Shown here: positions 23,319 to 63,854 of the stretch, piece by piece
Position numbering within the stretch: the first letter of the stretch is position 1
Layout: every line of letters starts with the position of its first letter
Origin: Candidatus Gastranaerophilales bacterium
GTDB lineage: Bacteria > Cyanobacteriota > Vampirovibrionia > Gastranaerophilales > Gastranaerophilaceae
Assembly (NCBI GenBank): GCA_944324365.1
Contig: CALUWA010000001.1
Location: forward strand, 62,001-126,000
DNA: 64,000 nucleotides
Reading direction: 5' to 3'
The notes under the pieces: generated by a model
The model's input: only the letters and a program-made list of their open reading frames with translations
What the model was told of the DNA's origin: nothing
The model's database searches: none
Position numbers and translations under genes: made by a program

Positions 23319-25070
23319 ATGATACAAAAAGTTAGTGCAAATAGTATAGAAAATAAAAATCATACCCCATTGTTGATTAAGGATAATAACAAACAGAATC
23401 CGTCATTTACCGGGGTTGCTGATTTGCTTATCCGCGGGATGCAGCGATGCGAAGCTGAACCAATGCTGAACGTTACGGTATTGGACTTGTCTACTGCTAT
23501 TGTACCGCGCTCTATTATTGAAACTGTTGCAGCATCTAAACAAAAAGATGAAAACGGAAATGTAATCCGCGACGAAAATGGTAAGGCTAAACGTAAATTT
23601 AATATACTTGCCGGTTTGGAAGCTTTGAGAAGAGAAGGTTCCGGACTTGTTATCAACTGTATTATTCCAAGTTTTGTTGTTGCCGGTGTAGCTAAACTTA
23701 TTAACGGCAAGATTATGGGCAGCGGTTCTAATCTTATCTGGAACTGGGCTGACAGAAATACCTTATCCACCGTAAATAGTTTTTATAAGGGCAAAGGCGC
23801 TGATAACTATACTGCGGCAATAAAAGATATCTTTATGGATTTGAAAGGGGCTGACGGCTCAACTATTGATAAGTCCTTTAAAGAAATATATGATTCAGAC
23901 TCTGCAGCATTTGACGATTTGTTCAAAAGTCTTGGCGAAATGGCAGATGCAAAAAAACTTGACAAAAAAGCTATTAAAAAAGCTATCAGTAATATTGTTG
24001 AAAAAACTCATATATCGGAGAATATTAAATTTACCAAAAATAACCCGGATGGTAAATATTTCGGTAATTCTTTGGAATCCTTGTTAAAAAATACCGTAGA
24101 AGTGCTGCATGATGCAAAACATGCAGGAATTGAATCTGCTGATGATTTTGCCAAATATATTGAAAAAGCTAAAAATTTAGTAAAATGGAAGAGTATCGGC
24201 GGGCTTGGAATTATTATCCCGCTTGCATTGGCCGCTCAGCCGATTAACAGATGGATTACCCATAAATCTGCCGGCAATAAAAAAGGTGCTCCTTTATACA
24301 ATGATAATGAAGAACGTATTCTTTCTAAAGAAGAAAAAGCTCAGCTTTTAAAACAAAAATTTATCTCTATCGGTTCAATGCTCGGTTTGTCATGGCTTTC
24401 AATGATGAAAATGCCGTCTATGGCTATGCTTGAATTTAAAAATATATTCCCGTCAATGGATCAGGCAAGGATTATTTCTACAGCAACATTTGCAAGCCGT
24501 ATGGGCGCATCCGAAGATTTCAATGACTTAAGAGAATCTACCGTGAGAGATCTTGCAACATTCTCAAGTTTCTATTTCTTAGGGGATTATGCCGCTAAGG
24601 GTATTGCATCATTCCTTGAGTGGAAGCATAAGGATGAAGGTATAAAATTAATAAATGATTTAAAACCACTAAAAGAAGGTGCTAACGTATTTGAAAAATT
24701 CTGGCACTGGACAAAACACACCGCACTAAAATCTACAAGTGAACTCGGAGGCAGTGCTCACTTACAAAAACTGCGTTCGGTATGTCAGTTGGGTAACTTG
24801 ACATTCTCACTTATATCATTGGGAGTATTCATCCCGTTGATAAACAGAATCCAAACGAATAAGAATGAACAGAAGCGTAAAGCAGAACTTGCAAATGATG
24901 CAAAAAATGCTTCACAGGCTGCGGCCGCGGGCTCGAAACCCTCGTCCGGGACGAACACCACGTCGTCGTCATCGACAACAGGTACGTCGTCGGACAGAGA
25001 AACAGGTTTGACCGGTCTTATGCCTGTAGACACAAAAAAGACCGCATTTGGAGCATTTTTTAATTCGTAA
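23319..25070 (+). CDS. Large membrane protein, paralogue A, unknown function
   Basis: The 583-residue protein has a polar N-terminus ending in NPSFTG (about residues 27-32), then STAIVPRSIIET, an ALRREGSG motif running into a hydrophobic segment (GLVINCIIPSFVVAGVAKLI), a central charged helical region, a second hydrophobic pair (IGGLGIIIPLALAAQPINRW), the motif NDLRESTVRD, and a last membrane segment (LTFSLISLGVFIPLI). A Ser/Thr linker rich in TCG/ACG codons ends the protein. The next gene is a paralogue 12 bp downstream. I know no characterised family. No usual ribosome binding site is evident. Confidence 0.75.
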   Translation: MIQKVSANSIENKNHTPLLIKDNNKQNPSFTGVADLLIRGMQRCEAEPMLNVTVLDLSTAIVPRSIIETVAASKQKDENGNVIRDENGKAKRKFNILAGLEALRREGSGLVINCIIPSFVVAGVAKLINGKIMGSGSNLIWNWADRNTLSTVNSFYKGKGADNYTAAIKDIFMDLKGADGSTIDKSFKEIYDSDSAAFDDLFKSLGEMADAKKLDKKAIKKAISNIVEKTHISENIKFTKNNPDGKYFGNSLESLLKNTVEVLHDAKHAGIESADDFAKYIEKAKNLVKWKSIGGLGIIIPLALAAQPINRWITHKSAGNKKGAPLYNDNEERILSKEEKAQLLKQKFISIGSMLGLSWLSMMKMPSMAMLEFKNIFPSMDQARIISTATFASRMGASEDFNDLRESTVRDLATFSSFYFLGDYAAKGIASFLEWKHKDEGIKLINDLKPLKEGANVFEKFWHWTKHTALKSTSELGGSAHLQKLRSVCQLGNLTFSLISLGVFIPLINRIQTNKNEQKRKAELANDAKNASQAAAAGSKPSSGTNTTSSSSTTGTSSDRETGLTGLMPVDTKKTAFGAFFNS

Positions 25071-25082
25071 AGGAAAGTAATT

Positions 25083-26981
25083 ATGGAAATTAAACAGATA
25101 ACCCCTCAAATAGAACAACACAGAAAGCAATTACATCAAGGTCAGAATCAGTATCAAAAAAATCCTTACAGTCCTGCATTTACCGGGCCGGTGGATACGC
25201 TGGTGGCTGTTCCGAATGTATTTTTAAGATTTTTGGATACGAACCAGGCTTGGGGCGCAAACCTTGTTGATGTTGGTTCCATGGTTATCCCAAGAACCTG
25301 GTATGATACAAAAAATCGCGGTCTTGCAACCGGGCTTGAAACAGGCAGAAGAGAATCTACTGGTACTTTTAACCATGCTATGGTTGGGGTATATGGTACT
25401 GTAGCCGGCGCTGCTCTTGCTATGGGGCTTAATAAAGCATATCAATTTAAAGCTCACAAAATATTTGCTAATAACGATACATTAAATATTTTAGGGGATT
25501 ATTGGTACAAAGCTTTAAAATCAGGTTCTAAAGATCCATTGAAGGATTATCTTGATAATGTAGTATCAAATATGCGTCTTTACAATCCTACCCGTGAAGA
25601 TGCCGTTGAAGGTATGGTAGGAATTAAAAATGATACTAAAAATGCTGTTGTAGATAAGTTATATGATTTAATTAAAAACGGGCAAAATGATATACTCAAA
25701 AAGCAGGACAGAGATTATATCCGTGCATTGATTACGGCTGATACCGGTGCAGAAAGAAGTGTTGCCATTAACGGCTTCTTTAAGGGTGAACCTGCTCAGG
25801 CCGATAATGTTTTGGCTACTCTTATAGAAAATATTCATAATGTTACCAAAGCATTTAACAAGAAAGCTTCAATTGACAGCTTTAAAGAGGCTGCTTCTGC
25901 AGAGTCTGTTAAATTATTGAAATCTTTGAAACATTTAAATGTAAGTCGTTCTGTTGCAGGGCTTGGCTTTGCGTCATTGTTTGGTATGTCTGTACAACCT
26001 ATAAATATGTATTTGACTAAGAAAAATACCGGTTGTGACGGTTTCCCTGGTGTGCCGGGACGTAAGAAAGACAAATCTAAGAAATTCTTTGCTCTTAAAA
26101 CTGCTATGGCTGCTCTGTTTAGTGCCGGTGCAATATCAACTATTATGATTGGCGATAAAAAATCCGCTATAAAAGAAGCCAGCAAAGTTCTTACGGCTTC
26201 AGATCATTTAAAGGCATTTGGCAACAAGTTCCTTGCTAAAATTCAATTTAAAGGTATGATGCCGACAATTAACCAATTGAAATTTGTTTATGGTATGACA
26301 ATTATGTCAAGATTGATGTGCGCAAGAGATGAAAACGAACTCAGGGAATCTACAGTAAAAGATTCTTTAGGGTTCTTAAACCTGCTTATCCTTGGTGCAT
26401 TGGTTACTAAAGGTGTTACCCGTCTTTTGAATAAAGATTTAATTAACCTGACTAAAAATTCAGGTAAAGGATTTATTAGCTGGATGAAAAATTCTTCCGT
26501 AAAATCAAGAGATGAAGTTATTCTGGAAGCCTTGAAAAATAACGGCATTGATGTTGTCAAAGACGGAAAGGCTCTTTCTTACGGAAAACTTCTTGAAGCA
26601 GCTAAGGGCTTGCCTAAAGAGGTAAGAAAATCTTTGAACGGTAAACTTGCCGTATTGAATATTGCGCAGCTTGTCGGATATGCATATTCCGGTATATTCC
26701 TCGGCTACTATCTGCCTAAGATTAACGATAAGATGTCAAAAGCTAACGAAGAAAAACGTATTGCTAAAGTTGCCAAAGAGCAGGGTAAGACTGTTGAGCA
26801 GGTTAAGGCTGAAATGGCGGAAGAAATAAAACGTATGGAGGCTGAAGCTAAGGGTAATAAGGTTCAAAAAGATGCGAAATCACAGAATTTTACATCTTCC
26901 GAACCTCAAAATGTTTCTGAGCAGAATTCTGTTTTAGCTGATAAAAATAAAGAGTTTCTCAATAAATTTATGGCTGCATAA
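25083..26981 (+). CDS. Large membrane protein, paralogue B, unknown function
   Basis: The 632-residue protein repeats the plan of its upstream neighbour: SPAFTG near the N-terminus, GSMVIPRTWYDT, GRREST before a hydrophobic segment, VQPINMYLTKKNTG, and NELRESTVKD before a further hydrophobic segment. Identity in between is low, so the duplication is old. A Lys/Glu/Ala-rich C-terminal helix extends past the last membrane segment. GGAAAG precedes the ATG. Co-transcription with paralogue A is likely. A hetero-oligomeric membrane complex is a possible reading, but this is inference. Confidence 0.75.
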   Translation: MEIKQITPQIEQHRKQLHQGQNQYQKNPYSPAFTGPVDTLVAVPNVFLRFLDTNQAWGANLVDVGSMVIPRTWYDTKNRGLATGLETGRRESTGTFNHAMVGVYGTVAGAALAMGLNKAYQFKAHKIFANNDTLNILGDYWYKALKSGSKDPLKDYLDNVVSNMRLYNPTREDAVEGMVGIKNDTKNAVVDKLYDLIKNGQNDILKKQDRDYIRALITADTGAERSVAINGFFKGEPAQADNVLATLIENIHNVTKAFNKKASIDSFKEAASAESVKLLKSLKHLNVSRSVAGLGFASLFGMSVQPINMYLTKKNTGCDGFPGVPGRKKDKSKKFFALKTAMAALFSAGAISTIMIGDKKSAIKEASKVLTASDHLKAFGNKFLAKIQFKGMMPTINQLKFVYGMTIMSRLMCARDENELRESTVKDSLGFLNLLILGALVTKGVTRLLNKDLINLTKNSGKGFISWMKNSSVKSRDEVILEALKNNGIDVVKDGKALSYGKLLEAAKGLPKEVRKSLNGKLAVLNIAQLVGYAYSGIFLGYYLPKINDKMSKANEEKRIAKVAKEQGKTVEQVKAEMAEEIKRMEAEAKGNKVQKDAKSQNFTSSEPQNVSEQNSVLADKNKEFLNKFMAA

Positions 26982-27070: not shown

Positions 27071-27102
27071 CAACATTATTGGATATAAGTAAGAGGGCAA
27101 AT

Positions 27103-28791
27103 ATGTCAGAAGAGTTGGAGCAGTTTAAAAATAAATTTTCAAAATTAGTAGAGGATGAAAAGTATAGTGAACTGCTAGCTATCTCTGAAACCAAACTGGA
27201 AGAATTGAATAAAACAGCACCTGATGATAAAGAATTTCTTGCTTATATTTATTTTGCAATTGGCTGTGCAAAATATCACTTAGGCAAATATCAAGATGCT
27301 ATTGAAGATTTAGATAAAGCTATTGAACTAGATCCAAAATTAAAAAATGCATATTACGGAAGAGGTGATGTTAAATATGCCCTAGGTAATTTTCAAGATG
27401 CTATCGAAGATTACAATAAGGCTATTGAACTAAAGCCTGATTACATGGATGCTTATAATAATAGAGGCAGGGCTAAACATGCCATAGGTAAGTTTCAGGA
27501 AGCTATTGAAGATTACAATAAGACTATTGAACTAAAGCCTGATTACATGGATGCTTATAATAATAGAGGCAGGGCTAAACATGCCATAGGTAAGTTTCAG
27601 GAAGCTATTGAAGATTACAATAAGACTATTGAGTTGAATCCTAATTATGAGGTTATTTATAATGATAGAGGGGTAGCAAAAGCTGCCCTAGGTAATTTTC
27701 AAGATGCTATTGAAGATTACAATAAGGCTATTGAATTAAAGCCTGATTACTTGGATGCTTATAATAATAGAGGTATTGCAAAAGCTAAACTAGGTAATTT
27801 TCAAGATGCTATTGAAGATTACAATAAGACTATTGAGTTGAATCCTAATTATGAGGTTATTTATAATGATAGAGGGGTAGCAAAAGCTGCCCTAGGTAAT
27901 TTTCAAGATGCTATCGAAGATTACAATAAGGCTATTGAGCTAAAGCCCGATTTTGAACCTGCTTATAATAATAGAGGCAGTGCAAAATCTGACCTAGGTA
28001 ATTTCCAAGAAGCGATTGAAGATTATAATAAGGCTATTGAACTAAAGCCTGATTACGTGGGTGCTTACTATAATAGAGGGCTAGCAAAAGATAAATTAGG
28101 CAAATATCAAGAAGCGATTGAAGATTATAATAAGGCTATTGAACTAAAGCCTGATTACGTGGATGCTTATTATAATAGGGGTATTGCAAAAGCTAACCTA
28201 GGTAATTTTCAAGAAGCGATTGAAGATTATAATAAGGCTATTGAGCTAAAGCCTGATTACTTGGATGCTTATTTACATAGAGGGGTAGTAAAAGCTGAAC
28301 TAGGTAAGTTTCAAGATGCTATCGAAGATTATAACAAGGCTATTGAGCTAAAGCCTGATTACGAGTATGCTTATTTATATAGAGGGGTAGCAAAAGCTGA
28401 ACTAGGTAAGTTTCAAGAAGCTATCGAAGATTACAATAAGGTTATTGAGTTAAAGTGCAATTGTGAAGCTGCTTATTTAAATAGAGGGGTAGCAAAAGCT
28501 AACTTAGATAATTTTCAAGAAGCTATCGAAGATTATAATAAGGTTATTGAGTTAAAGTGCGATTGTGAAGCTGCTTATTTAAATAGAGGGGTAGCAAAAG
28601 CTAACTTAGATAATTTTCAAGAAGCTATCGAAGATTACAATAAGGTTATTGAGTTAATGCCTGATTGCGCAATAGTATATTTACTCAGAGGTGCTACAAA
28701 TTTAGACCTGCACAACTATATCAAAGCAATAAAAGATTTTTGGTTGTTTTTGATAGTTAAAATAGGTTTCAAAAGACAGCACAAACACTAG
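27103..28791 (+). CDS. TPR protein with 14-15 near-identical repeats
   Basis: After about 50 residues the protein is a string of 34-residue TPR units of the form Y-N-N-R-G-x-A-K-x-x-L-G-N-F-Q-x-A-IEDYNKAIELKPDY. Start chosen at 27103 with AAGAGGG 6 bp upstream; the frame could extend to a TTG at 27079. There is no signal peptide, so it is probably a cytoplasmic scaffold. At DNA level the 102-bp units are nearly identical and one two-unit block is duplicated, indicating recent amplification. The last unit is degenerate and ends in a basic tail. Confidence 0.85.
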   Translation: MSEELEQFKNKFSKLVEDEKYSELLAISETKLEELNKTAPDDKEFLAYIYFAIGCAKYHLGKYQDAIEDLDKAIELDPKLKNAYYGRGDVKYALGNFQDAIEDYNKAIELKPDYMDAYNNRGRAKHAIGKFQEAIEDYNKTIELKPDYMDAYNNRGRAKHAIGKFQEAIEDYNKTIELNPNYEVIYNDRGVAKAALGNFQDAIEDYNKAIELKPDYLDAYNNRGIAKAKLGNFQDAIEDYNKTIELNPNYEVIYNDRGVAKAALGNFQDAIEDYNKAIELKPDFEPAYNNRGSAKSDLGNFQEAIEDYNKAIELKPDYVGAYYNRGLAKDKLGKYQEAIEDYNKAIELKPDYVDAYYNRGIAKANLGNFQEAIEDYNKAIELKPDYLDAYLHRGVVKAELGKFQDAIEDYNKAIELKPDYEYAYLYRGVAKAELGKFQEAIEDYNKVIELKCNCEAAYLNRGVAKANLDNFQEAIEDYNKVIELKCDCEAAYLNRGVAKANLDNFQEAIEDYNKVIELMPDCAIVYLLRGATNLDLHNYIKAIKDFWLFLIVKIGFKRQHKH

Positions 28792-28837
28792 CGGATACAC
28801 TTTTTGCATTTACATTTTCCCTGGATTTCACACGAAG

Positions 28838-29105
28838 CGTCATTGCGAGCGAAGCGAAGCAATCCAGGAAATAAGATCGCAGACAAACCTTTGGTTTTCC
28901 GCGATGACATGCGGCAGGCAGGATGTACCAAAATCCTGTCATCGCGCACTTGTTGCGCAATCTATGGATTGCTTCGTCGTATTGCTTCGGATTATTCGGG
29001 TTGTTGCCGGAGTAACGGCCGGCTCCAACTTACGGGCTGGGACACTTCGTGCCACGGCGCCCTTCCGAAAATCCGACCTCGCAATGATGTTCCAGACCAT
29101 CCAAA
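28838..29105 (+). repeat. Palindromic intergenic repeat block (REP-like)
   Basis: The 318-bp gap between convergent genes holds CGTCATTGCGAGCGAAGCG followed by AAGCAATCC, a repeat type known from many unrelated bacterial genomes, and an inverted counterpart GGATTGCTTCGTCGTATTGC near 28,965, plus CTCGCAATGATG near 29,082. Short paired stretches (ATCGCGCACTTGTTGCGC) suggest folded RNA. Base composition is more GC-rich than its surroundings. The reading frames here are repeat artefacts; I see no gene. Confidence 0.75.
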
Positions 29106-29109
29106 ACAG

Positions 29110-30957
29110 CTAGTTTATAATTTTACCGTCAAACAAATCAATTATCATATTAACCTGGTCAGAGTTGCTTGCAGCATTTGAATGTTTGTGAGCAGTTTGG
29201 TCGGGTTTCTTTATTTCTTCTTTTGCTTCCTGAATTTCTTCTTCGTCAGGCTGAGGTTCTTGCGGTTTTGGCTCTATATGCCTGGGCTTTGGTGCAGGCG
29301 CAGCGGCAGGTTTTACCTGTTCATCTCCCGGCTGCGGCAGCCTTACTATAATATTTGAATTGGTTTGGTTAAACAGTGCATCAACCGCATCTGTGAGAAT
29401 TTTTTTCTTGTTGCCTGAGATAAATTGGTTCAGAAGCAGTTCATTTTTTATTGTTAAAATAACTTCTTCCGGTTCAAGTTTAATCGGATTAGCCCACTGT
29501 TTTAATAATGCTCTTGTCGGGGCTGATTGTACGTTTGTCAAAAGCTGTCCCCAAAGTGATGCTATATCTCCGCTTGCTGCAGGTTTTGACAGAGGTACCG
29601 GAGAAAAGTCTTCTGTTTGCGGCGCCGGTTCCTGTTTAATCTCTTGTTTAATCTCCGGCTGTGCTTTTACAGGTTCCGGAGCCGGCTGATGTGCTGGCTG
29701 CGGTTTTGCAAGCTGTTCTTCCAATTGTTCTTTTATTCTATGAATGGTAGAAACTGGTGTCGGCGGTGTTTTGTATTGCGCCGGAGCGGGACTGACTGCA
29801 CCGCCTTCAAGTTTTGTAATTCTATTTTGCAGTTCAACCAGTTTTGTATTTTCCGCCAGATTGGCAAGATCTATTATCCCGACTTCAAGCCATAAACGCG
29901 GGTTATTTGTTGTTTTAACTTCCTTAATGTAATTTGAAGTTTTTTCTATCAAAAATGTAATTTGATGTGTTTCAAGATTTTCTACCTGTTTTTGCAATTC
30001 ACTGATTTGGGCTTCATTTAGCTGGGTCAGCTCAAATATAATCTCAGGTTTGCAGTTTTTCACAATCAAAAGGTTTTTGAAATAATCAAGCAGGTTCGTT
30101 AAAATTTGGGTCGGTTCATTGCCCGAATTGTAAATACTTTCCAAAATTTCAATTGCCTCTTGCGGTTTAGAGTTTATTACAGCTTCTGATAGATTTTTTA
30201 ATTTATCAAATGATATTCTGCCCAAAAGGTTGTTTATATCATCAGTTGAAATTGCTTCCTCGCCGTCCAGAATGCTGAGCTGGTCAAGAAGTGCGATACT
30301 GTCGCGCATACCGCCTGCGGAATTTTTTGCAATGGTAAACAGTGCATCATCCGTAATATTTATTCCTTCTTTATCAGAAATATATCTAAGATGTTTAACA
30401 ATATCGTCAGTTGTAATTCTTCTGAAATCAAAGCGCTGGCAGCGGCTTTTTATCGTGTCAAGAACTTTATGCACTTCGGTCGTCGCAAGAATAAATATAA
30501 CGTTTTTCGGCGGTTCTTCAAGTGTTTTCAAAAGTGCGTTAAATGCAGTGTTTGAAAGCATGTGAACTTCGTCAATAATATATATCTTATACCTGCTGTT
30601 TACAGGTGCATACATAACTTTTTCCAAAATGTTTTGGGCATCTTCAACTTTTCTGTTGCTGGCAGCATCTATTTCTATTACATCCATCGGAACTGAATTT
30701 GTAATATCAATACAATTTTCGCAGACTCCGCAAGGATGAATTGTCGGGCCCTCTTTGCAGTTAAGAGATTTTGCAAAAATTCTTGCAGTTGAAGTTTTAC
30801 CAGTTCCGCGCGGGCCGGTGAAAAGATATGCGTGAGAAATCTTGTTCATTGAAATTGCGTTGGTAAGCGCCTTTTTAATATGCTCTTGCCCTACAATTTC
30901 TTCTAGTCTTTGCGGACGATATTTGCGGTATAAAGGTATATATTTTTCGTTAGTCAT
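29110..30957 (-). CDS. dnaX: DNA polymerase III subunits gamma/tau
   Basis: The 615-residue protein has Walker A GPRGTGKT at residues 48-55, a zinc module CKEGPTIHPCGVCENC, the IIDEVHML Walker B box, and the SRCQRF sensor, all typical of the clamp loader motor. The C-terminal third is Pro/Ala/Gln-rich linker plus a tau-like domain. It loads the beta clamp and couples the two polymerase cores. The ATG is 6 nt from a TATAAT box and has no ribosome binding site, so the mRNA may be leaderless. Confidence 0.97.
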   Translation of the reverse strand: MTNEKYIPLYRKYRPQRLEEIVGQEHIKKALTNAISMNKISHAYLFTGPRGTGKTSTARIFAKSLNCKEGPTIHPCGVCENCIDITNSVPMDVIEIDAASNRKVEDAQNILEKVMYAPVNSRYKIYIIDEVHMLSNTAFNALLKTLEEPPKNVIFILATTEVHKVLDTIKSRCQRFDFRRITTDDIVKHLRYISDKEGINITDDALFTIAKNSAGGMRDSIALLDQLSILDGEEAISTDDINNLLGRISFDKLKNLSEAVINSKPQEAIEILESIYNSGNEPTQILTNLLDYFKNLLIVKNCKPEIIFELTQLNEAQISELQKQVENLETHQITFLIEKTSNYIKEVKTTNNPRLWLEVGIIDLANLAENTKLVELQNRITKLEGGAVSPAPAQYKTPPTPVSTIHRIKEQLEEQLAKPQPAHQPAPEPVKAQPEIKQEIKQEPAPQTEDFSPVPLSKPAASGDIASLWGQLLTNVQSAPTRALLKQWANPIKLEPEEVILTIKNELLLNQFISGNKKKILTDAVDALFNQTNSNIIVRLPQPGDEQVKPAAAPAPKPRHIEPKPQEPQPDEEEIQEAKEEIKKPDQTAHKHSNAASNSDQVNMIIDLFDGKIIN

Positions 30958-43792: not shown

Positions 43793-46700
43793 ATGACAGA
43801 GATAGAAAATACAGGCAAAAGCAGCTTAATAAATCAGCTTTGTACTACAAGCGGTGCCAGCGGGGAAGCATTGGAGCGGCTTCGCAAACGTCTTGAAGGC
43901 ATGGATGAGAAGGCTTTACGTGAACTTCTTGCAAACGGAGTAAAGGATTTGGACCGCGGAGTAAGATTAGAGAAAACGGGTACCGCTTCAAACGCCGCAG
44001 AAGGAGCCTACACGGAAACCTTTACCGAAACAAATGCAGAGGGGAAAAGTATTGAGGTTGTCTTGACCTTTGACGGAGAGAACAGACCGCTTAAGCGTGT
44101 AGAGAAGCTGGATGGAAATACAATAAGTACAACAACGTATTCTTGGCACGATGAAGACGAGGATACAATTTCGTATGTTACATTAAATACCGTAAAAGCG
44201 GATAATACAAAAGTCGTAACAACAGCGCTTGAGGTAAACGAGAGGGGAAGCGTTGACAAGGAAGATTTTATAGACAGAACAACAGTGCAGCTTGACGGCA
44301 CGGAAACTGCCGTTTACGTAAAAGACGGAGCGATAGTAGAGCAGAAAGTTAAGCCTGACGGAAAGAAGGTTCTGACGGCATACAACGGCACGGATATAGA
44401 TGCGTATGACGAAAAGGGTCTGCACAGACTGTTTCAGCAGACAGAGAAAGACGGAAAAATAAATTATGTAGAATATGACGGGCAGGGCAATACGTTAACA
44501 ACGGTTCAAAACGGTGAAAGTCCCGCATTAATAGCGCAGAAATTTAATGTATCGCAAAATGCTCTTATGAGATTGAATAAGAAGCGTGGCAAGGGCTCAA
44601 TTGAGCAGGTTGGTTCCGAGATAAGAATACCCGGAGAATTTAACGCTGATTCTTATCCGGTGAGAGTCAGAAAGAGTGCGGATGAAAGCTTGGAAGCCTA
44701 TGCAAGGTATGAGTATAACCAGAGGGCAAAAGAGATTTATACATCTGAGATAACGACTGAAAAACTTACAAAGGATTACGGCGGAAATTACTGGGAGCTT
44801 GCAAAAGACTTGCTTGGACAAAATGCGACAAACGATGCAATCAGCAAGAAAGTTCAGGAACTGCAGCTTTTGAATGGGAACAGCAAGCTTTCGAAGGGCA
44901 CAACAATACGTACGGCGGGTAAGAAAACAGATGCTGCGTATGTAAAAGAGCTTTCAAAATACGGATTCGCTCCGGGTGAGGAAAATTTTGGCTTTTATTC
45001 AAAATTTAATAAGCTCACAAAGTCCGAGCAGCAAAACGTGTTGAATATCCTTAAATATTTAAAGACGCAGAAAATAACAGATAAAACCAGGTTAAAAGCT
45101 GAGATAATGAAGATATATCCGGATATAAATTTATTTGATTCGGATAAAAAGATACCGATGCGCGGCACGGGAACCGGAGCAGTTGGCTTTGGCGCAAGCA
45201 ATGACGGGGTTGCGCTGGAAACATTTGTAACTGAGTATCTGGGACTTAATTTAAACACAGAGCCCGGCAAAACTGTTTATGAAAGATTAAGCAGTTTACC
45301 TCAAGAAGGGTTAAACCAAATATCTGCGGGTGATTTTCTTGAACGTATAGGGCAGGTGCCGACGGGTAAGAAACGGACATTGCAGAACAAGACTTTTAAA
45401 GAGGCGCAGCAGGTATTAAGCCGGTATGGGATAGACATTCGCACTCCTCAAGAGCAGACTCAGGACAGAATAAGATATGAAAGGAGTCCGGAATATGCAG
45501 CACGCCAGAGAAGAGAGGTTGCAGCGGAGAATATAACAATAGCTTACGACCAGGCAATAGATTTAATTAAGCAATACCAGGATAACCAAGGCTGGTTAAA
45601 TATTGGGTATTGGAGAGAGAAGGCCGGGGCGCTTCTTGACTTAGTAGTCCCGGAAGATTCGCCTGTTGCGACCAATTTTGATGGTGTAATAAGACGGTTA
45701 GAGAAGCAGAGAGATTTTGCGAAGAGTTATCTTGCCGGAAATGCGGGAAATCCTGCAACATTCAAGAAGTATTTCAAAGAGTTTACCGGCAAGGAATATG
45801 ATGAGAACAAAGTCAAGGCTTTTTTGGACAAAGCCGAAAAGGGTGAAGATTGGCAGAATGCATATATTGAAGCCTTTGGAACAAAAATCGTAGATGATAT
45901 TACCGGACAGATAGATTTTGTATCAAAGATAGACGGAGCCGGAGATATTGTGGCAATGCTTGTTGGGACAAGCGCGATAGCTGGTACTTCTGCATTTAAG
46001 GGAGCAGCTAAGGGATTGAGCACAAGCATAGGCAGAGCTGCGGGAGCAAAGACAGCTAGGATAGCGACATCTATGGCAGCCGGCGGAGCAACGCTTGGGA
46101 CTTGGACGGCGTTACAGACGACGACAAACAATTTAACAAAAGAAACACCGACGACTCTTGATGACTGGAAGAATGCGGGAGTTGCAACTTTAGAATCCAT
46201 AGGATTTGGTGCTGCGGGCGGGCTTTTGAACACTACCATAGTTGACAAAGTTGTAAAGGCTACTTCAAAAGCTATAGAAAAACCTGCTTTAAAGGCGATG
46301 AAGGCTGTAAAGACATCGCTTGACAAATCTGGTACGATGTCGGGTGCAGATTTGATGAAAACGTTTATAAAGGAGAGTGCACCGGGGACGATTTCGAAGC
46401 AGGCGTCTTTGATTTCTAATTTAGCGGCCGGAACAGTTAAGGCTGCGGGATTTACTACAGAAGTTGCAGGGTTTACTTTATACGAAACCGCGCTGGATGT
46501 ATGCAAGGATTTATTTAACGCGGAGGGTAGATTACCTGAGGATATGACTGTTGAGAATTTGGCGGCTTACCTTGGCGACAGATTAAAGGATCAGGTGACA
46601 ATGCTTGGCGAAATAAAGGGCATATCTTCTTTGCTAATGATGATGAAAGGCGGCAGGGTTGGTGCTCAGCTTGAGTTTGAAAGACAGCTGGAACAGTGTA

Positions 46701-49700
46701 ATACGCTGAAAAATGTTAAGATAAAGACTGCGACTGTAAACGGCAGAGAGGTTTACGAGATAACATATCCGAACGGAAACCGTGCTGTGGCTAATTCGTT
46801 AAATGATGTCGTTGCTAATTGCAATATGATTATGAATTTCGATATGATTAGTAATCTTGCAGGTGCTAAAACTCAAGCTCAAACTGACAATAAAACCGCT
46901 AAAAATTCCCCTAACGGGATGACTGACGCTGAAAATGCTGCGCTTAACGCGGCTAAGGGTGAAAATCCAGCAAATGTCGCTGCGGAAAAGATTAAATCCG
47001 AAGTTATGCGCCGCGAAGGTGATGGCGGAATGCGCTTGAATACTCCGGAATCTCTTGATGCGGAACTAAGATTTGCAGAAGAAAATCCTAACGCACCAAA
47101 AGAAAATCTTGAAACTTTGTCGCTTGTAGTCAACGGAAAACTTAATGAAACTCTTACTGCACGCTATGAAAAAATGGAAGATGCTTTCCGTGAGATTGCA
47201 CAAAACAGGCGCGCAGAAATCAACGAATTAAAAGAAAAGTACGCAAACGATAACCAAAAATTTGCACAAGAGGTGGTTAAACTGCTTGCAGATGATCTTG
47301 GATTTAAAGGACTTTCAGTTCCTGTTAAATTTGTAGAAACAAAATCTGCAGACGGCTTTGCAAACTGGCCTGAGGGCAGAATTGATATTAGCAATAAACT
47401 TACCAATAAAGATAAAATTGTAAATATATTATCTCACGAACTTGTACATATGATTCAATTTAGGGATATTGCGGCACAATACGGTGCAGATGGTGTAAAA
47501 GCCCTTATTGAAAACGATCCGCAGATTAAAGCGGCCGATAAAGAAGGCTTGGTTCAAAAAGCTTTGAATAATGAATTTAACAAGCAATTAATTGAACAGT
47601 TTAATGATGTTGCTGAAACCGGCTCGCTTACGGAATATTTACGCAGTATTTATAAAAATGAATTTATAAATACAAAATCTGCGAACGATCCTGAATATAC
47701 CTCCCAATTAACAGAGCGCGAAGCTTACAGAATGGGAAGCAGACAGCTTGGAGATAATATGGCGGCTGATGCTGCAAAAACAAGATTGGAAGCTATTCGT
47801 GCACGTTTGAAATCTGGAGGAAACCTAAATGAAGTAATGGAAGGCGAACGTGCCGCTGACATGGATGTTAAGGGCAAAGAAAATATAACAGTAAATGAAT
47901 TTGGAGAAGTTTCTCGCGAAAATTCAGCTAAAAATCTTCCGGCAGGTTCTATCTGGGAAGCCTATGACCTTACTAATGAACAACTTAAAGTAAGAGATTT
48001 GTTTACTGATGAATTATTATTCTCAGAAGATACTGTGAAAGCAGAAGAGACTGTTAGGTCAATAATTAAAGCTGTTTCAAAGGAGGACGGTTCTCTTGAT
48101 GCAAAAGTATATAGCATGTTGAAAGTTATTTATAACAGTAAATACTTTAAAGAGGATAACAAACTTGACGGAATAAGCAGTCTGTTTGAGATGACAAAGA
48201 TTAACGGCAAAGTTGATTATAATCTCCTTATGAAAACCTTATCAAAAGATAATGGGCTGGAGAATTTTGTTGATGGTGTTATACCTAGAAATCAACATGA
48301 TACCTATGGTTTTGAGTTATCAATGCAAAATATCAAAACCTGCTTAAGAGATAAGTCAGGCAAAATATCAATTGAAAATTTCGAAAAGTATATTGAGCTT
48401 GCCAACAGTAATTTATTTTACAATGGAAGTCCGTCAGGTATTGAAAACTTTTTTGAAAAATTTCAGGATGCTGACGGTACTGTAAACTTTAAAGTAATGG
48501 ATACATTCTTAAAAGACCAAGCTCGCAGATTAAATAATAATATTGCTCCTGACAAAGAAGTAACTTCTAAGGATTATATCCCTGAACTTGGTCAACAAAT
48601 TCAATATGGTTTTGGCAATACTGCTTTGTTGTTAAAATACGGGCGTGATAATAACGGAAATTTGAATATTGAAAAAATTAATAATTTAAGAGAATTTATT
48701 GAAAACACAAGCTATCTTGGTAATATACTGCAAACTCTATCATCTGCCTCCGTAAAAGATGGTAAATTTAATTATGAAGTATTTAATCAGCTCTTAAATG
48801 TTACACAAAAACTAGCAAATCCGGGGAATATTAATGGTATCTTATATTACTTTAGGTCAGGTAATAACGATAGAATATCTTTTGATAACTTCCTGAAAAA
48901 TCCTGATGAAACGATAGACGTTATAAATTTAATTGACAATTGTTACACTATAACTAGCGCGGGTCTCAATATACCGGTTACAAAAACTCAGGCTGAAGCT
49001 GTAAAATTCTTATACAATACGGTTAAAGATTCGTATAAGGATGCATACAGTATTTTGCCTATAGCTGACGCCGCAAATGAATATAATTTACCGGTTATAA
49101 AAAGACTTGCTGAAGAATTAATGTCAGGTAAACCTTTGACTAAAAAAGACGGAACTCCATATACCGGTGGTGACTACATTATATATTACGATTTGATAAA
49201 TCTTGCTAAGAAATGTGATTCAAAAGAGGCTGCGGATTATGCACTTAAGTGTATAAATGAAAAAGATTACTTTAATAAAAATGAAGATTCCATATATTTG
49301 TCCAATATCTGTTTACTTGTTGACTGCTACAAAAATAATCCTGAATTTACGCTTAAGTACAAATCTCTTGTTTTACAGTGCGGTCCGTATGCGACCCAAA
49401 CACTCAGTGTCTTTATGAATGGCGGTGAGATTTCAGGTCAGCAGTGTAAGCCTTTGAATGAATACCAGATCGATTTTGTAAGTAAAATGCTGCAAAATCA
49501 GGATTCAGGATTTTACTCATCTTCATTAAATGCTAAAATGAATAATATTATTGCGGAGCAGCCAAAAGAGATACTTGATTTAATATATAAAATAAAAGTA
49601 AATAAAACTTACACCGGTCCTCTTGAAGATTTTATCCAAAATCTTGCAAAAGTTAAAACAGATGCTCCGAATACGTATGAGCTCATAGATTATTGCATTA

Positions 49701-51934
49701 ATAATGGAGTAAAACTTGGTATGTCTCGGAGTGAACTTGAATGTAGAAATATTTCAGCAGAGGAGTTGGCAAATGTTAAAGAGTACCTCAATAATCCTAA
49801 TTCCTGTCTCAAAAATGGTAATGAGATACAACTTTCGCTATTAATAGACAATCTTGACAGAATAAAATTCTTTGATGCGCACCCGGATATAGTTTCAATT
49901 ATTAAAGATGATTTATCTATGTATATAGAAGAAACAAGTATTCCGTTAGAAGCATTCACAAAAGGAAAAGTCTTATTTGATATGATTTCTCCTGATGTAA
50001 TAAAAAAATTAGACAGTAAGACACCGATGCTGTTCCAATATGCTGTTGCGGCGGAATATGGGTTATTAACAAGAGAGCAATACAAAAACATTGTCGATGC
50101 ACTTAATGTATCAAACAAATATGGTGAGTCTGCAGTTAATACGATTTATGAAGCAATATCTGGGCGAATTACGGAAGATTTAAGTGCAGAGGTGACTTCT
50201 TCACAAAATATTGACTATATTGCAAAAGCCTGCTCGGAAGGCAGAATCTCCGCAGATTTGGTTAAGGATTTGGTATGGACTCGCGGATACGACATTGCCA
50301 AAAATGATGCTGCAGTTCAGCAGTTGTTAGCAGAAAAAGCAGAAGTTCTAAAAGGTATTAAGCTGAAAACCCAAAATACTCTTCCTGACTTTACAAATAA
50401 AGTCCAAGACTTTATGGAATCTGCCGAATTTAACAAGATATTGACTGCATCAAATCTGACCAAACAAGAATTTATAGATAATATGTACCAGATAGCAAAA
50501 TTGTACTCTTCAGTTCAAAAGAAACCGCAGGATTATATCAACGGAGATTTTTCTCAAAATGCATATGAACTTTATAACTTGAGCTTAAGCCCTGAAAATA
50601 AAGGATTGTCTTTTACTGAAATTGTGAATAAATATAATCAACAGGGCAGAAATTATTCAGATAATGATGCCAGAAATGCAGAGTGGATTACAAATGACAT
50701 AAAGAAAAATATAGAGCAAAACTTGCCAAAAATATACTCGGCATTAGCTGCTACGGATATGGAAGCTGTAAAACTGCTTCTTGATAAGAGATTTGATAAA
50801 TTCTCAGAATCTCTTAATACACTCGCCAAAATGCCTGTTGATGCGCGTATTGCGTTGGCTGATATTATAAGAAACGGTAAACGAATTAACAAAAAAGGCC
50901 AGCCGGACAAATTAACAGGACACCAGAAGATTGATTTAATACAGATTGTAGATCAACTAAGTAGAATAACCGGTGCAGCAGGAGTTAATGTTGATTATAA
51001 AAAATACATGACTCCGCTTCCTAAAGGCGCATTTGTATTGGATATTGATGCTATGAGAGGTGATATCTTCAGATATCTCCTGAAAAGTAATGGTCTTAGC
51101 GAAGCTGAGATTGCATCGCTAAAGACTGAAAATCTGAATTGGGATAAAGAATATGTTTCATTGCTTACCCAAAAGCCTGCGCAAGACAACGGGGAGTTGA
51201 GTGAAGTAATAGTTGAAGCTTCAAAAGGTAATTTTGCAAATTATATAACCGATACAACAAACAAACACGGTCAGGCAAATGCTGAAACTGCCAAGATGTT
51301 TGGTGAACGCGGTTTGAATTATGAAGCATGGCAGACTGGCCCTGCAGAACAAACCTTTAAAATTGGTGATAAAGATTACACAATAAAATTGTGGAATCGT
51401 GTTCCTCAGGAATCTCTGTTTGACGGTTCATACACGACCTGCTGCACGGCTCTCGATGGTTCAAACGGCGGTTCTATGGCGAATTATTTGCTTAATACTG
51501 CGATAAATGTAGTTGAAGTTAAGGATTCAAACGGTAAAACAGTTGCTATGTCACGCTGTTATGTCGGAGAAGTCGGCGGTAAAAATACCCTTGTAATGGA
51601 AAATATTGAAGCAAATAATAGACTGATTAAAGAGATGTATGGTTTTGGAGGCAACATGGAGCTTACCGCAGGGATATTTGATTATATGAAAGATTTTGCA
51701 ACACTTATCGGCGGCAAGGATATGCCTGTAGTAATGTCAACAAGCTATAACAAAATCGGCACAGATCCTTTTAACAATTTAGCGACTGTTACGCTGCCGA
51801 ATAACTTGATCGGTAAGATTTCTAAACCTAAGATTTATTTAAATACCTACTGTGGGTACATTGATGCAAACAACCTTAACGGTAAAAAAGCTGATTTCTA
51901 TATAGTAAGAGGTGAATATGACCAAAATAACTAA
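43793..51934 (+). CDS. Giant multidomain protein (2,713 residues), unknown function
   Basis: Parts visible in order: a repeat-like N-terminus of beta-rich DGxxL units (about 60-235); a LysM-like domain NGESPALIAQKFNVSQNAL (about 237-284) and a possible second one (325-375); a Gly/Ala-rich hydrophobic stretch (about 720-840); a zinc-peptidase-type HELVH near 1214-1218 with a downstream Glu-rich region; a series of EF-hand-like loops (about 1430-1700: DKSGKISIENF, DADGTVNFKV, DNNGNLNIEKI); and a C-terminal domain with SYTTCCTALDG near 2545. No signal peptide. AAAGGTG precedes the ATG. Composition differs between the first 1,020 residues and the rest. I know no characterised homologue. Confidence 0.85.
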   Translation: MTEIENTGKSSLINQLCTTSGASGEALERLRKRLEGMDEKALRELLANGVKDLDRGVRLEKTGTASNAAEGAYTETFTETNAEGKSIEVVLTFDGENRPLKRVEKLDGNTISTTTYSWHDEDEDTISYVTLNTVKADNTKVVTTALEVNERGSVDKEDFIDRTTVQLDGTETAVYVKDGAIVEQKVKPDGKKVLTAYNGTDIDAYDEKGLHRLFQQTEKDGKINYVEYDGQGNTLTTVQNGESPALIAQKFNVSQNALMRLNKKRGKGSIEQVGSEIRIPGEFNADSYPVRVRKSADESLEAYARYEYNQRAKEIYTSEITTEKLTKDYGGNYWELAKDLLGQNATNDAISKKVQELQLLNGNSKLSKGTTIRTAGKKTDAAYVKELSKYGFAPGEENFGFYSKFNKLTKSEQQNVLNILKYLKTQKITDKTRLKAEIMKIYPDINLFDSDKKIPMRGTGTGAVGFGASNDGVALETFVTEYLGLNLNTEPGKTVYERLSSLPQEGLNQISAGDFLERIGQVPTGKKRTLQNKTFKEAQQVLSRYGIDIRTPQEQTQDRIRYERSPEYAARQRREVAAENITIAYDQAIDLIKQYQDNQGWLNIGYWREKAGALLDLVVPEDSPVATNFDGVIRRLEKQRDFAKSYLAGNAGNPATFKKYFKEFTGKEYDENKVKAFLDKAEKGEDWQNAYIEAFGTKIVDDITGQIDFVSKIDGAGDIVAMLVGTSAIAGTSAFKGAAKGLSTSIGRAAGAKTARIATSMAAGGATLGTWTALQTTTNNLTKETPTTLDDWKNAGVATLESIGFGAAGGLLNTTIVDKVVKATSKAIEKPALKAMKAVKTSLDKSGTMSGADLMKTFIKESAPGTISKQASLISNLAAGTVKAAGFTTEVAGFTLYETALDVCKDLFNAEGRLPEDMTVENLAAYLGDRLKDQVTMLGEIKGISSLLMMMKGGRVGAQLEFERQLEQCNTLKNVKIKTATVNGREVYEITYPNGNRAVANSLNDVVANCNMIMNFDMISNLAGAKTQAQTDNKTAKNSPNGMTDAENAALNAAKGENPANVAAEKIKSEVMRREGDGGMRLNTPESLDAELRFAEENPNAPKENLETLSLVVNGKLNETLTARYEKMEDAFREIAQNRRAEINELKEKYANDNQKFAQEVVKLLADDLGFKGLSVPVKFVETKSADGFANWPEGRIDISNKLTNKDKIVNILSHELVHMIQFRDIAAQYGADGVKALIENDPQIKAADKEGLVQKALNNEFNKQLIEQFNDVAETGSLTEYLRSIYKNEFINTKSANDPEYTSQLTEREAYRMGSRQLGDNMAADAAKTRLEAIRARLKSGGNLNEVMEGERAADMDVKGKENITVNEFGEVSRENSAKNLPAGSIWEAYDLTNEQLKVRDLFTDELLFSEDTVKAEETVRSIIKAVSKEDGSLDAKVYSMLKVIYNSKYFKEDNKLDGISSLFEMTKINGKVDYNLLMKTLSKDNGLENFVDGVIPRNQHDTYGFELSMQNIKTCLRDKSGKISIENFEKYIELANSNLFYNGSPSGIENFFEKFQDADGTVNFKVMDTFLKDQARRLNNNIAPDKEVTSKDYIPELGQQIQYGFGNTALLLKYGRDNNGNLNIEKINNLREFIENTSYLGNILQTLSSASVKDGKFNYEVFNQLLNVTQKLANPGNINGILYYFRSGNNDRISFDNFLKNPDETIDVINLIDNCYTITSAGLNIPVTKTQAEAVKFLYNTVKDSYKDAYSILPIADAANEYNLPVIKRLAEELMSGKPLTKKDGTPYTGGDYIIYYDLINLAKKCDSKEAADYALKCINEKDYFNKNEDSIYLSNICLLVDCYKNNPEFTLKYKSLVLQCGPYATQTLSVFMNGGEISGQQCKPLNEYQIDFVSKMLQNQDSGFYSSSLNAKMNNIIAEQPKEILDLIYKIKVNKTYTGPLEDFIQNLAKVKTDAPNTYELIDYCINNGVKLGMSRSELECRNISAEELANVKEYLNNPNSCLKNGNEIQLSLLIDNLDRIKFFDAHPDIVSIIKDDLSMYIEETSIPLEAFTKGKVLFDMISPDVIKKLDSKTPMLFQYAVAAEYGLLTREQYKNIVDALNVSNKYGESAVNTIYEAISGRITEDLSAEVTSSQNIDYIAKACSEGRISADLVKDLVWTRGYDIAKNDAAVQQLLAEKAEVLKGIKLKTQNTLPDFTNKVQDFMESAEFNKILTASNLTKQEFIDNMYQIAKLYSSVQKKPQDYINGDFSQNAYELYNLSLSPENKGLSFTEIVNKYNQQGRNYSDNDARNAEWITNDIKKNIEQNLPKIYSALAATDMEAVKLLLDKRFDKFSESLNTLAKMPVDARIALADIIRNGKRINKKGQPDKLTGHQKIDLIQIVDQLSRITGAAGVNVDYKKYMTPLPKGAFVLDIDAMRGDIFRYLLKSNGLSEAEIASLKTENLNWDKEYVSLLTQKPAQDNGELSEVIVEASKGNFANYITDTTNKHGQANAETAKMFGERGLNYEAWQTGPAEQTFKIGDKDYTIKLWNRVPQESLFDGSYTTCCTALDGSNGGSMANYLLNTAINVVEVKDSNGKTVAMSRCYVGEVGGKNTLVMENIEANNRLIKEMYGFGGNMELTAGIFDYMKDFATLIGGKDMPVVMSTSYNKIGTDPFNNLATVTLPNNLIGKISKPKIYLNTYCGYIDANNLNGKKADFYIVRGEYDQNN

Positions 51935-63542: not shown

Positions 63543-63854
63543 ATGAAAGTACAAAATTCTTATAATACAAATACCCCGTCATTTGGTAAATTTATTAAAA
63601 TTAGCGGGAAAACACATTCCATTAATGCTTTTCGTACTGAACTTAACAGTAAAAGCGACAGATTTATGACACTCGGCGTTAAAAAAGATAAGCATAAGTC
63701 AATTCTGTATTTGTTCAGCGGAAAACATTTTGATGAATTTATTGATATCAGCAGTAATATGCATTTTGGAACGTTTAGAAGAAATGTTGAAAAATATATG
63801 AAGAGCAAACCTGAAAAATTCAGCTTAAAAAAAGCTGAGAAAAAATTTCTCTAA
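63543..63854 (+). CDS. Small hypothetical protein with N-terminal PSFGK motif
   Basis: The 103-residue basic protein begins MKVQNSYNTNTPSFGKFIKI and is otherwise mixed alpha/beta. The polar N-terminus ending in PSFGK resembles the NPSFTG and SPAFTG N-termini of the paralogues at 23,319 and 25,083. GGAGAAAAG precedes the ATG. Convergent 4-nt overlap with the next gene. Confidence 0.6.
   Translation: MKVQNSYNTNTPSFGKFIKISGKTHSINAFRTELNSKSDRFMTLGVKKDKHKSILYLFSGKHFDEFIDISSNMHFGTFRRNVEKYMKSKPEKFSLKKAEKKFL

Follow-up and report, generated by a model that had tools for sequence, protein, structure and literature searches.

Tandem paralogs A and B of Gastranaerophilales: putative two-repeat membrane proteins with split, fused, and order-swapped relatives

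Gastranaerophilales is an order in the non-photosynthetic class neighboring the cyanobacteria. The genome analyzed here comprises 2.05 Mb in 36 contigs, and the window is a stretch of 64 kb from one of them (G000:C1:62001-126000). Herein, two genes, A and B, lie in tandem on the same strand, where the initial annotation had placed them (Table 1). They are separated by 12 bp, and a ribosome-binding-like aggaaag is found between the stop codon of A and the start of B; gene calls are simple longest-ORF calls. In a scan for promoters of the sigma-70 type, promoter-like matches did not exceed the chance level. Terminator-like sites were slightly more frequent than expected by chance (6 versus 2.9), and the terminator scan gave none 3' of B. 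Directly downstream of B, at 27079-28791 of the window, a 570-aa protein with about 14 very similar TPR repeats is encoded; A and B have a TPR-type protein nearby in a few other loci as well, although not consistently. Spurious-looking ORFs at 28804-29181 of the window, L104:15417, and L105:10744 read like ASLRAKRSNPGNK or ASEAKQSRRK and resemble a repeat element dispersed through the genome. The window also contains a 2713-aa ORF (43793-51934), whose sole Pfam match is one LysM domain at residues 237-280.

Table 1. Positions of genes A and B, of their repeats, and of further features. Plain numbers refer to the window; prefixed positions lie elsewhere in the same genome.
Feature	Position	Strand	Length	Description
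Gene A	23319..25070	+	583 aa	Putative two-repeat membrane protein (membrane assignment from hydrophobicity)
A repeat 1	23319..24284	+	residues 1-322	F30-T-G, P63-R64, R104-R105-E106, hydrophobic 110-128, helical insert, hydrophobic 287-305, Q307-P-I-N310-xxx-T314
A repeat 2	24312..24932	+	residues ~332-538	F373-K, S393-R394, R405-E406-S-T-V-R-D411, hydrophobic helix ~412-430, hydrophobic 490-508, P506-L-I-N509
Gene B	25083..26981	+	632 aa	Paralog of A
B repeat 1	25083..26069	+		F33-T-G, P70-R71, R89-R-E91, Q305-P-I-N308-xxx-T312
B repeat 2	26199..26801	+		F389-K-G, S409-R410, R421-E422-S-T-V-K-D427, P545-K-I-N548
C	G000:C1:274460-276619		720 aa	Fused version of the second half pair
E	G000:C2:45643-47247		535 aa	Relative with halves in swapped order
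F	L101:8812-10221		469 aa	Matched by E at 1.5e-8; half-2 profile match once
P-x-F-x-G orphans	63543-63854; L103:9383-11029, L105:8460, L108:10189, L110:19565, L120:13220, L128:12767			Orphan proteins with the N-terminal pattern

A and B are divergent paralogs, as proposed initially. BLASTP aligns them nearly end to end at 22% identity (E 5e-20); hence, the motifs they have in common are not chance islands. All four motif pairs described before are found at matching places, namely VPR (residues 62-64), RREGS, QPINRWITHKSAG, and LRESTVRD in A, and IPR, RREST, QPINMYLTKKNTG, and LRESTVKD in B. Conservation was determined over 74 A and 46 B orthologs from about 20 genera, counting the rows with a residue at the respective position. 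At P63, R64, R105, E106, Q307, N310, R394, D411, and G422 (A numbering), conservation is 100% in the A as well as the B orthologs, and the same holds for the F of the N-terminal F-x-G, which the initial annotation did not contain. T314 is found in 100% of A and 98% of B orthologs, and E406 in 97% and 100%, respectively. Other parts of the motifs are less fixed, with S407 of LREST being a serine in 43% and R405 an arginine in 72% of the A orthologs. Since these key residues are fully conserved in both groups, the motifs are retained in orthologs from other genomes, the point on which the initial reading had been made to depend.

The hydrophobic segments of A and B, with Kyte-Doolittle means of 1.1-2.2, mostly lie at matching places, in line with the likeness noted at first. 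About two clear hydrophobic helices are seen per repeat, in addition to weaker ones. Because of this hydrophobicity, A and B are probably integral membrane proteins; the charge bias around the helices gives no clear topology. Conservation is concentrated at hydrophobic-helix ends, and the insert between the helices is variable. AlphaFold2 models of single chains, calculated from 22 sequences, reach a moderate mean pLDDT of 69 for A and 76 for B, and their confidence is highest in the helical inserts and poor at both termini. They contain long predicted helices of 36-58 residues.

As judged from sequence, each of A and B consists of two homologous repeats, and the motifs represent one repeat signature that occurs twice. 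Each repeat runs from F-x-G through a helix ending in [P/S]-R, an R-E followed by x3-[RK]-D or S-[ST]-G, a hydrophobic helix, an insert, and another hydrophobic helix to P-x-N-x3-T. The insert is helical and comprises about 160 residues in repeat 1 and about 50-80 residues in repeat 2. In A, RREGS at ~106 recurs as LRESTVRD at ~406, QPIN at ~310 as PLIN at ~509, and F-x-G at ~30 as F-K at ~373. The four motifs reported as separate islands are thus all present but not separate: RRE(G/S)(S/T) and LREST-V-(R/K)D are the same motif in two repeats, as are QPIN and P-[LK]-I-N. When the profiles of half 1 and half 2 are compared directly (HH), the probability is 22-28% over 20-42 columns, which is too weak as stand-alone proof of the repeats. 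Therefore, the repeat assignment leans on a bridge through the relative E, together with half genes that are split in sister families and with the fused and split forms of C.

In 14 loci from two other families of the same class, half 1 (~470-560 aa) and half 2 (~230-310 aa) are encoded by separate adjacent genes, most of which overlap by 4 bp. Among the loci of the sister families (L160-L179), several have the split half genes flanked by cdaA, a diadenylate cyclase gene, and by lysA, whose product is diaminopimelate decarboxylase-like. A second half pair, the counterpart of C, sits divergently beside the first pair in sister loci, and C itself is split in several genomes of Gastranaerophilales. 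The search for further members, advised initially, yielded three more relatives (C, E, and F) elsewhere in the same genome. In E and its orthologs, the first half matches the half-2 profile, and the second half matches both half profiles, meaning that the halves are homologous and that their order is swapped in E. For the E ortholog in L223, the half-1 profile covers residues 185-521 with an i-E of 1.7e-10, and the half-2 profile gives i-E values of 3.8e-7 and 7e-6, all obtained by searching a few dozen sequences. The family signature, which is [P/S]R, RE...[RK]D or RE-S-[ST]-G, and P-x-N-x3-T in this order and twice, is present in A, B, the sister half pairs, and C, and with swapped order in E; for F, the assignment relies solely on the match to E, a single profile match, and inspection by eye. 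Adjoining E divergently, a 273-aa protein with glycine-rich hydrophobic stretches is encoded (L109:4639-5460). It accompanies E in 17 of 20 loci and is a candidate for a partner protein.

In a tree of A, B, and the concatenated sister halves, a well-supported branch separates each of the three sets from the rest (100/100, 100/99, and 100/99). The simplest reading is that the halves were fused first, with a tandem duplication to A and B following in the Gastranaerophilales line; we infer this order, since the root of the tree is not fixed by the data.

The polar N terminus of A, B, and C ends in P-x-F-x-G (or P-S-F-G-K), an ending that also occurs on unrelated orphan proteins of the same genome. 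None of the seven orphans scanned (0/7) matches Pfam at the cut-off. The pattern, which was chosen after the fact, is about 10 times denser in N termini than elsewhere when A, B, and C are included, and an unbiased scan for N-terminal motifs did not single it out. It is possibly a short N-terminal motif. A handling by A and B of proteins tagged in this manner was rejected, given the negative unbiased scan and similar N termini in a genus without A and B (g17).

Among 192 Gastranaerophilales genomes, 178 have a match to B and 176 to A, and all 14 genomes without B are also without A; presence in the sampled genomes of the order is about 92%. E-values of these searches apply to single genomes, and the A and B queries can match each other weakly, so that the presence of a single gene is less certain than a joint absence. 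Assembly gaps may explain the absences in G101 and G117, since other members of their genera carry the pair. G155 and L093 have an A-type protein, but no B was detected; in the latter (genus g18), the B query gives an E of ~1e-16, which is taken as a cross-hit. Genus g20 (G104) carries A and B on separate contigs, and genus g17 is mostly without A and B, yet keeps C and E. The latter two were found in 98 and 95 of 107 genomes of the order, respectively. When the half-1 profile was searched against 292 genomes of the phylum, matches were confined to Gastranaerophilales (120 genomes), with none in the other cyanobacteria searched; the two sister families were not among the genomes listed for this search, which makes the family boundary approximate. 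The family is near-universal in Gastranaerophilales and probably lineage-specific.

In most sampled genera, A lies directly upstream of B, and there is mostly one A-B pair per genome. Since this order is kept while the outer neighbors change, the pair itself is the unit. As regards the suggested look for co-occurring genes, A and B are retained jointly, and the genes around them are not constant. A function could not be assigned from neighbors, as ATP synthase genes and genes taken from their sequences to be tRNA nucleotidyltransferase-like and RsmE-like are near only about half of the loci, and cdaA and lysA have no clear functional tie.

Family membership was accepted at the curated cut-off of a family or at E < 0.001, and a fold at a Foldseek E < 0.001 with a useful TM-score. 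At these thresholds, A and B match no family in Pfam-A, NCBIfam, or PHROGs, and a sequence search against PDB chains gave nothing significant; C, E, and F have no match to described families at the curated cut-off. Literature searches on the order and class also gave no description of such proteins. The statement that no characterized family is known therefore holds for Pfam, NCBIfam, PHROGs, and the PDB. A stray Pfam match of 4 of the 22 orthologs to a primase helical domain (best E 4e-4, ranging up to 1) was taken as chance. Foldseek with the moderate-confidence models of A and B found nothing in the PDB at E < 0.001 (best E 0.043 and 0.45), nor did the B model match the viral models of BFVD at this level.

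Fusion of the halves, overlap of the half genes, and joint retention of A and B support a heteromeric membrane complex, as first proposed, and suggest that the parts act together therein. The proposal is plausible, but A-type proteins without detectable B in some genera show that an obligatory A-B pair is not general, and together with the losses in genus g17, they imply a variable makeup of any such complex. Split and fused states are also known for other membrane proteins, following a general pattern of domain fusion. The likeness lies in the overlapping half genes of the sister lineages and their fusion in Gastranaerophilales, whereas no sequence relation of A and B to any described case was found. 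A multi-subunit, lineage-specific complex of the cytoplasmic membrane is the most likely interpretation. The fuller proposition, in which A and B represent two subunits from an undescribed cytoplasmic-membrane family that is lineage-specific and whose halves and subunits pair in a multi-repeat complex, has about even chances.

Each paralog may instead be an independent transporter or channel. The two repeats would then form a pseudo-twofold permease, and the five proteins A, B, C, E, and F would not be partners but differ in substrate. A two-repeat design with conserved proline, asparagine, and charged residues beside hydrophobic helices, as seen here, is typical of secondary transporters, and internally duplicated ones of the EAAT/glutamate transporter, NhaP, and MFS/OAT types provide the top Foldseek names. 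They resemble A and B in having two homologous halves with polar and proline residues near helix ends. Five diverged paralogs in one genome would fit this explanation as well, as would the fact that the top fold matches, though not significant, are mostly transporters. However, none of the solved transporters reaches significance (TM-scores of about 0.1-0.2), the clear hydrophobic helices are fewer with only about two per repeat, the helical insert is large and variable, and pathway neighbors are not constant. Independent transporters are therefore rather unlikely.

A structural scaffold or membrane-shaping protein, in which the hydrophobic helices are anchors and the helical inserts do the work, would account for the well-modeled insert with its long helices, the charged C-terminal tails, and the near-universal presence without metabolic context; it is nevertheless improbable, as conservation peaks at the hydrophobic-helix ends and not in the variable insert. 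Mobile-element, phage, or selfish cargo spreading as a two-gene block is disfavored to the point of being highly implausible, for the changing gene context between genera is all that fits it, and it is opposed by the lack of PHROG and viral fold matches, the mostly single pair per genome, the clean A and B clades, and the wide presence in the order.

In the preferred membrane complex, repeat 1 would pack against repeat 2 in the same way as the separate half-proteins, and A would pair with B in the same manner as the halves. C, E, and F would make further pairs of the same or of sister complexes. Invariant R, E/D, P, and N residues are found where the hydrophobic helices end; these would line the interface between repeats near one membrane face or form a working surface. 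The complex itself may act as a channel or translocase or, alternatively, as a structural scaffold. A constitutive role of the set is favored, based on its near-universal presence in the order and the lack of a constant pathway-marking neighbor. A bolder extension, which is doubtful but conceivable, is that the five paralogous double-repeat proteins, with ten repeats, constitute one or two hetero-oligomeric membrane machines of a new fold, invented in this class by fusion of half-subunits, order swap, and duplication.

Gastranaerophilales are abundant, little-studied gut bacteria that stand next to the photosynthetic cyanobacteria. The set is near-universal in the order, and none of the other searched cyanobacterial genomes gave a match; it is thus likely to be the mark of an envelope function specific to a part of the non-photosynthetic branch. 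With split, fused, and swapped states inside one class, the family is a good case for the evolution of repeat membrane complexes, and the split lineage makes the interaction of the halves directly testable.
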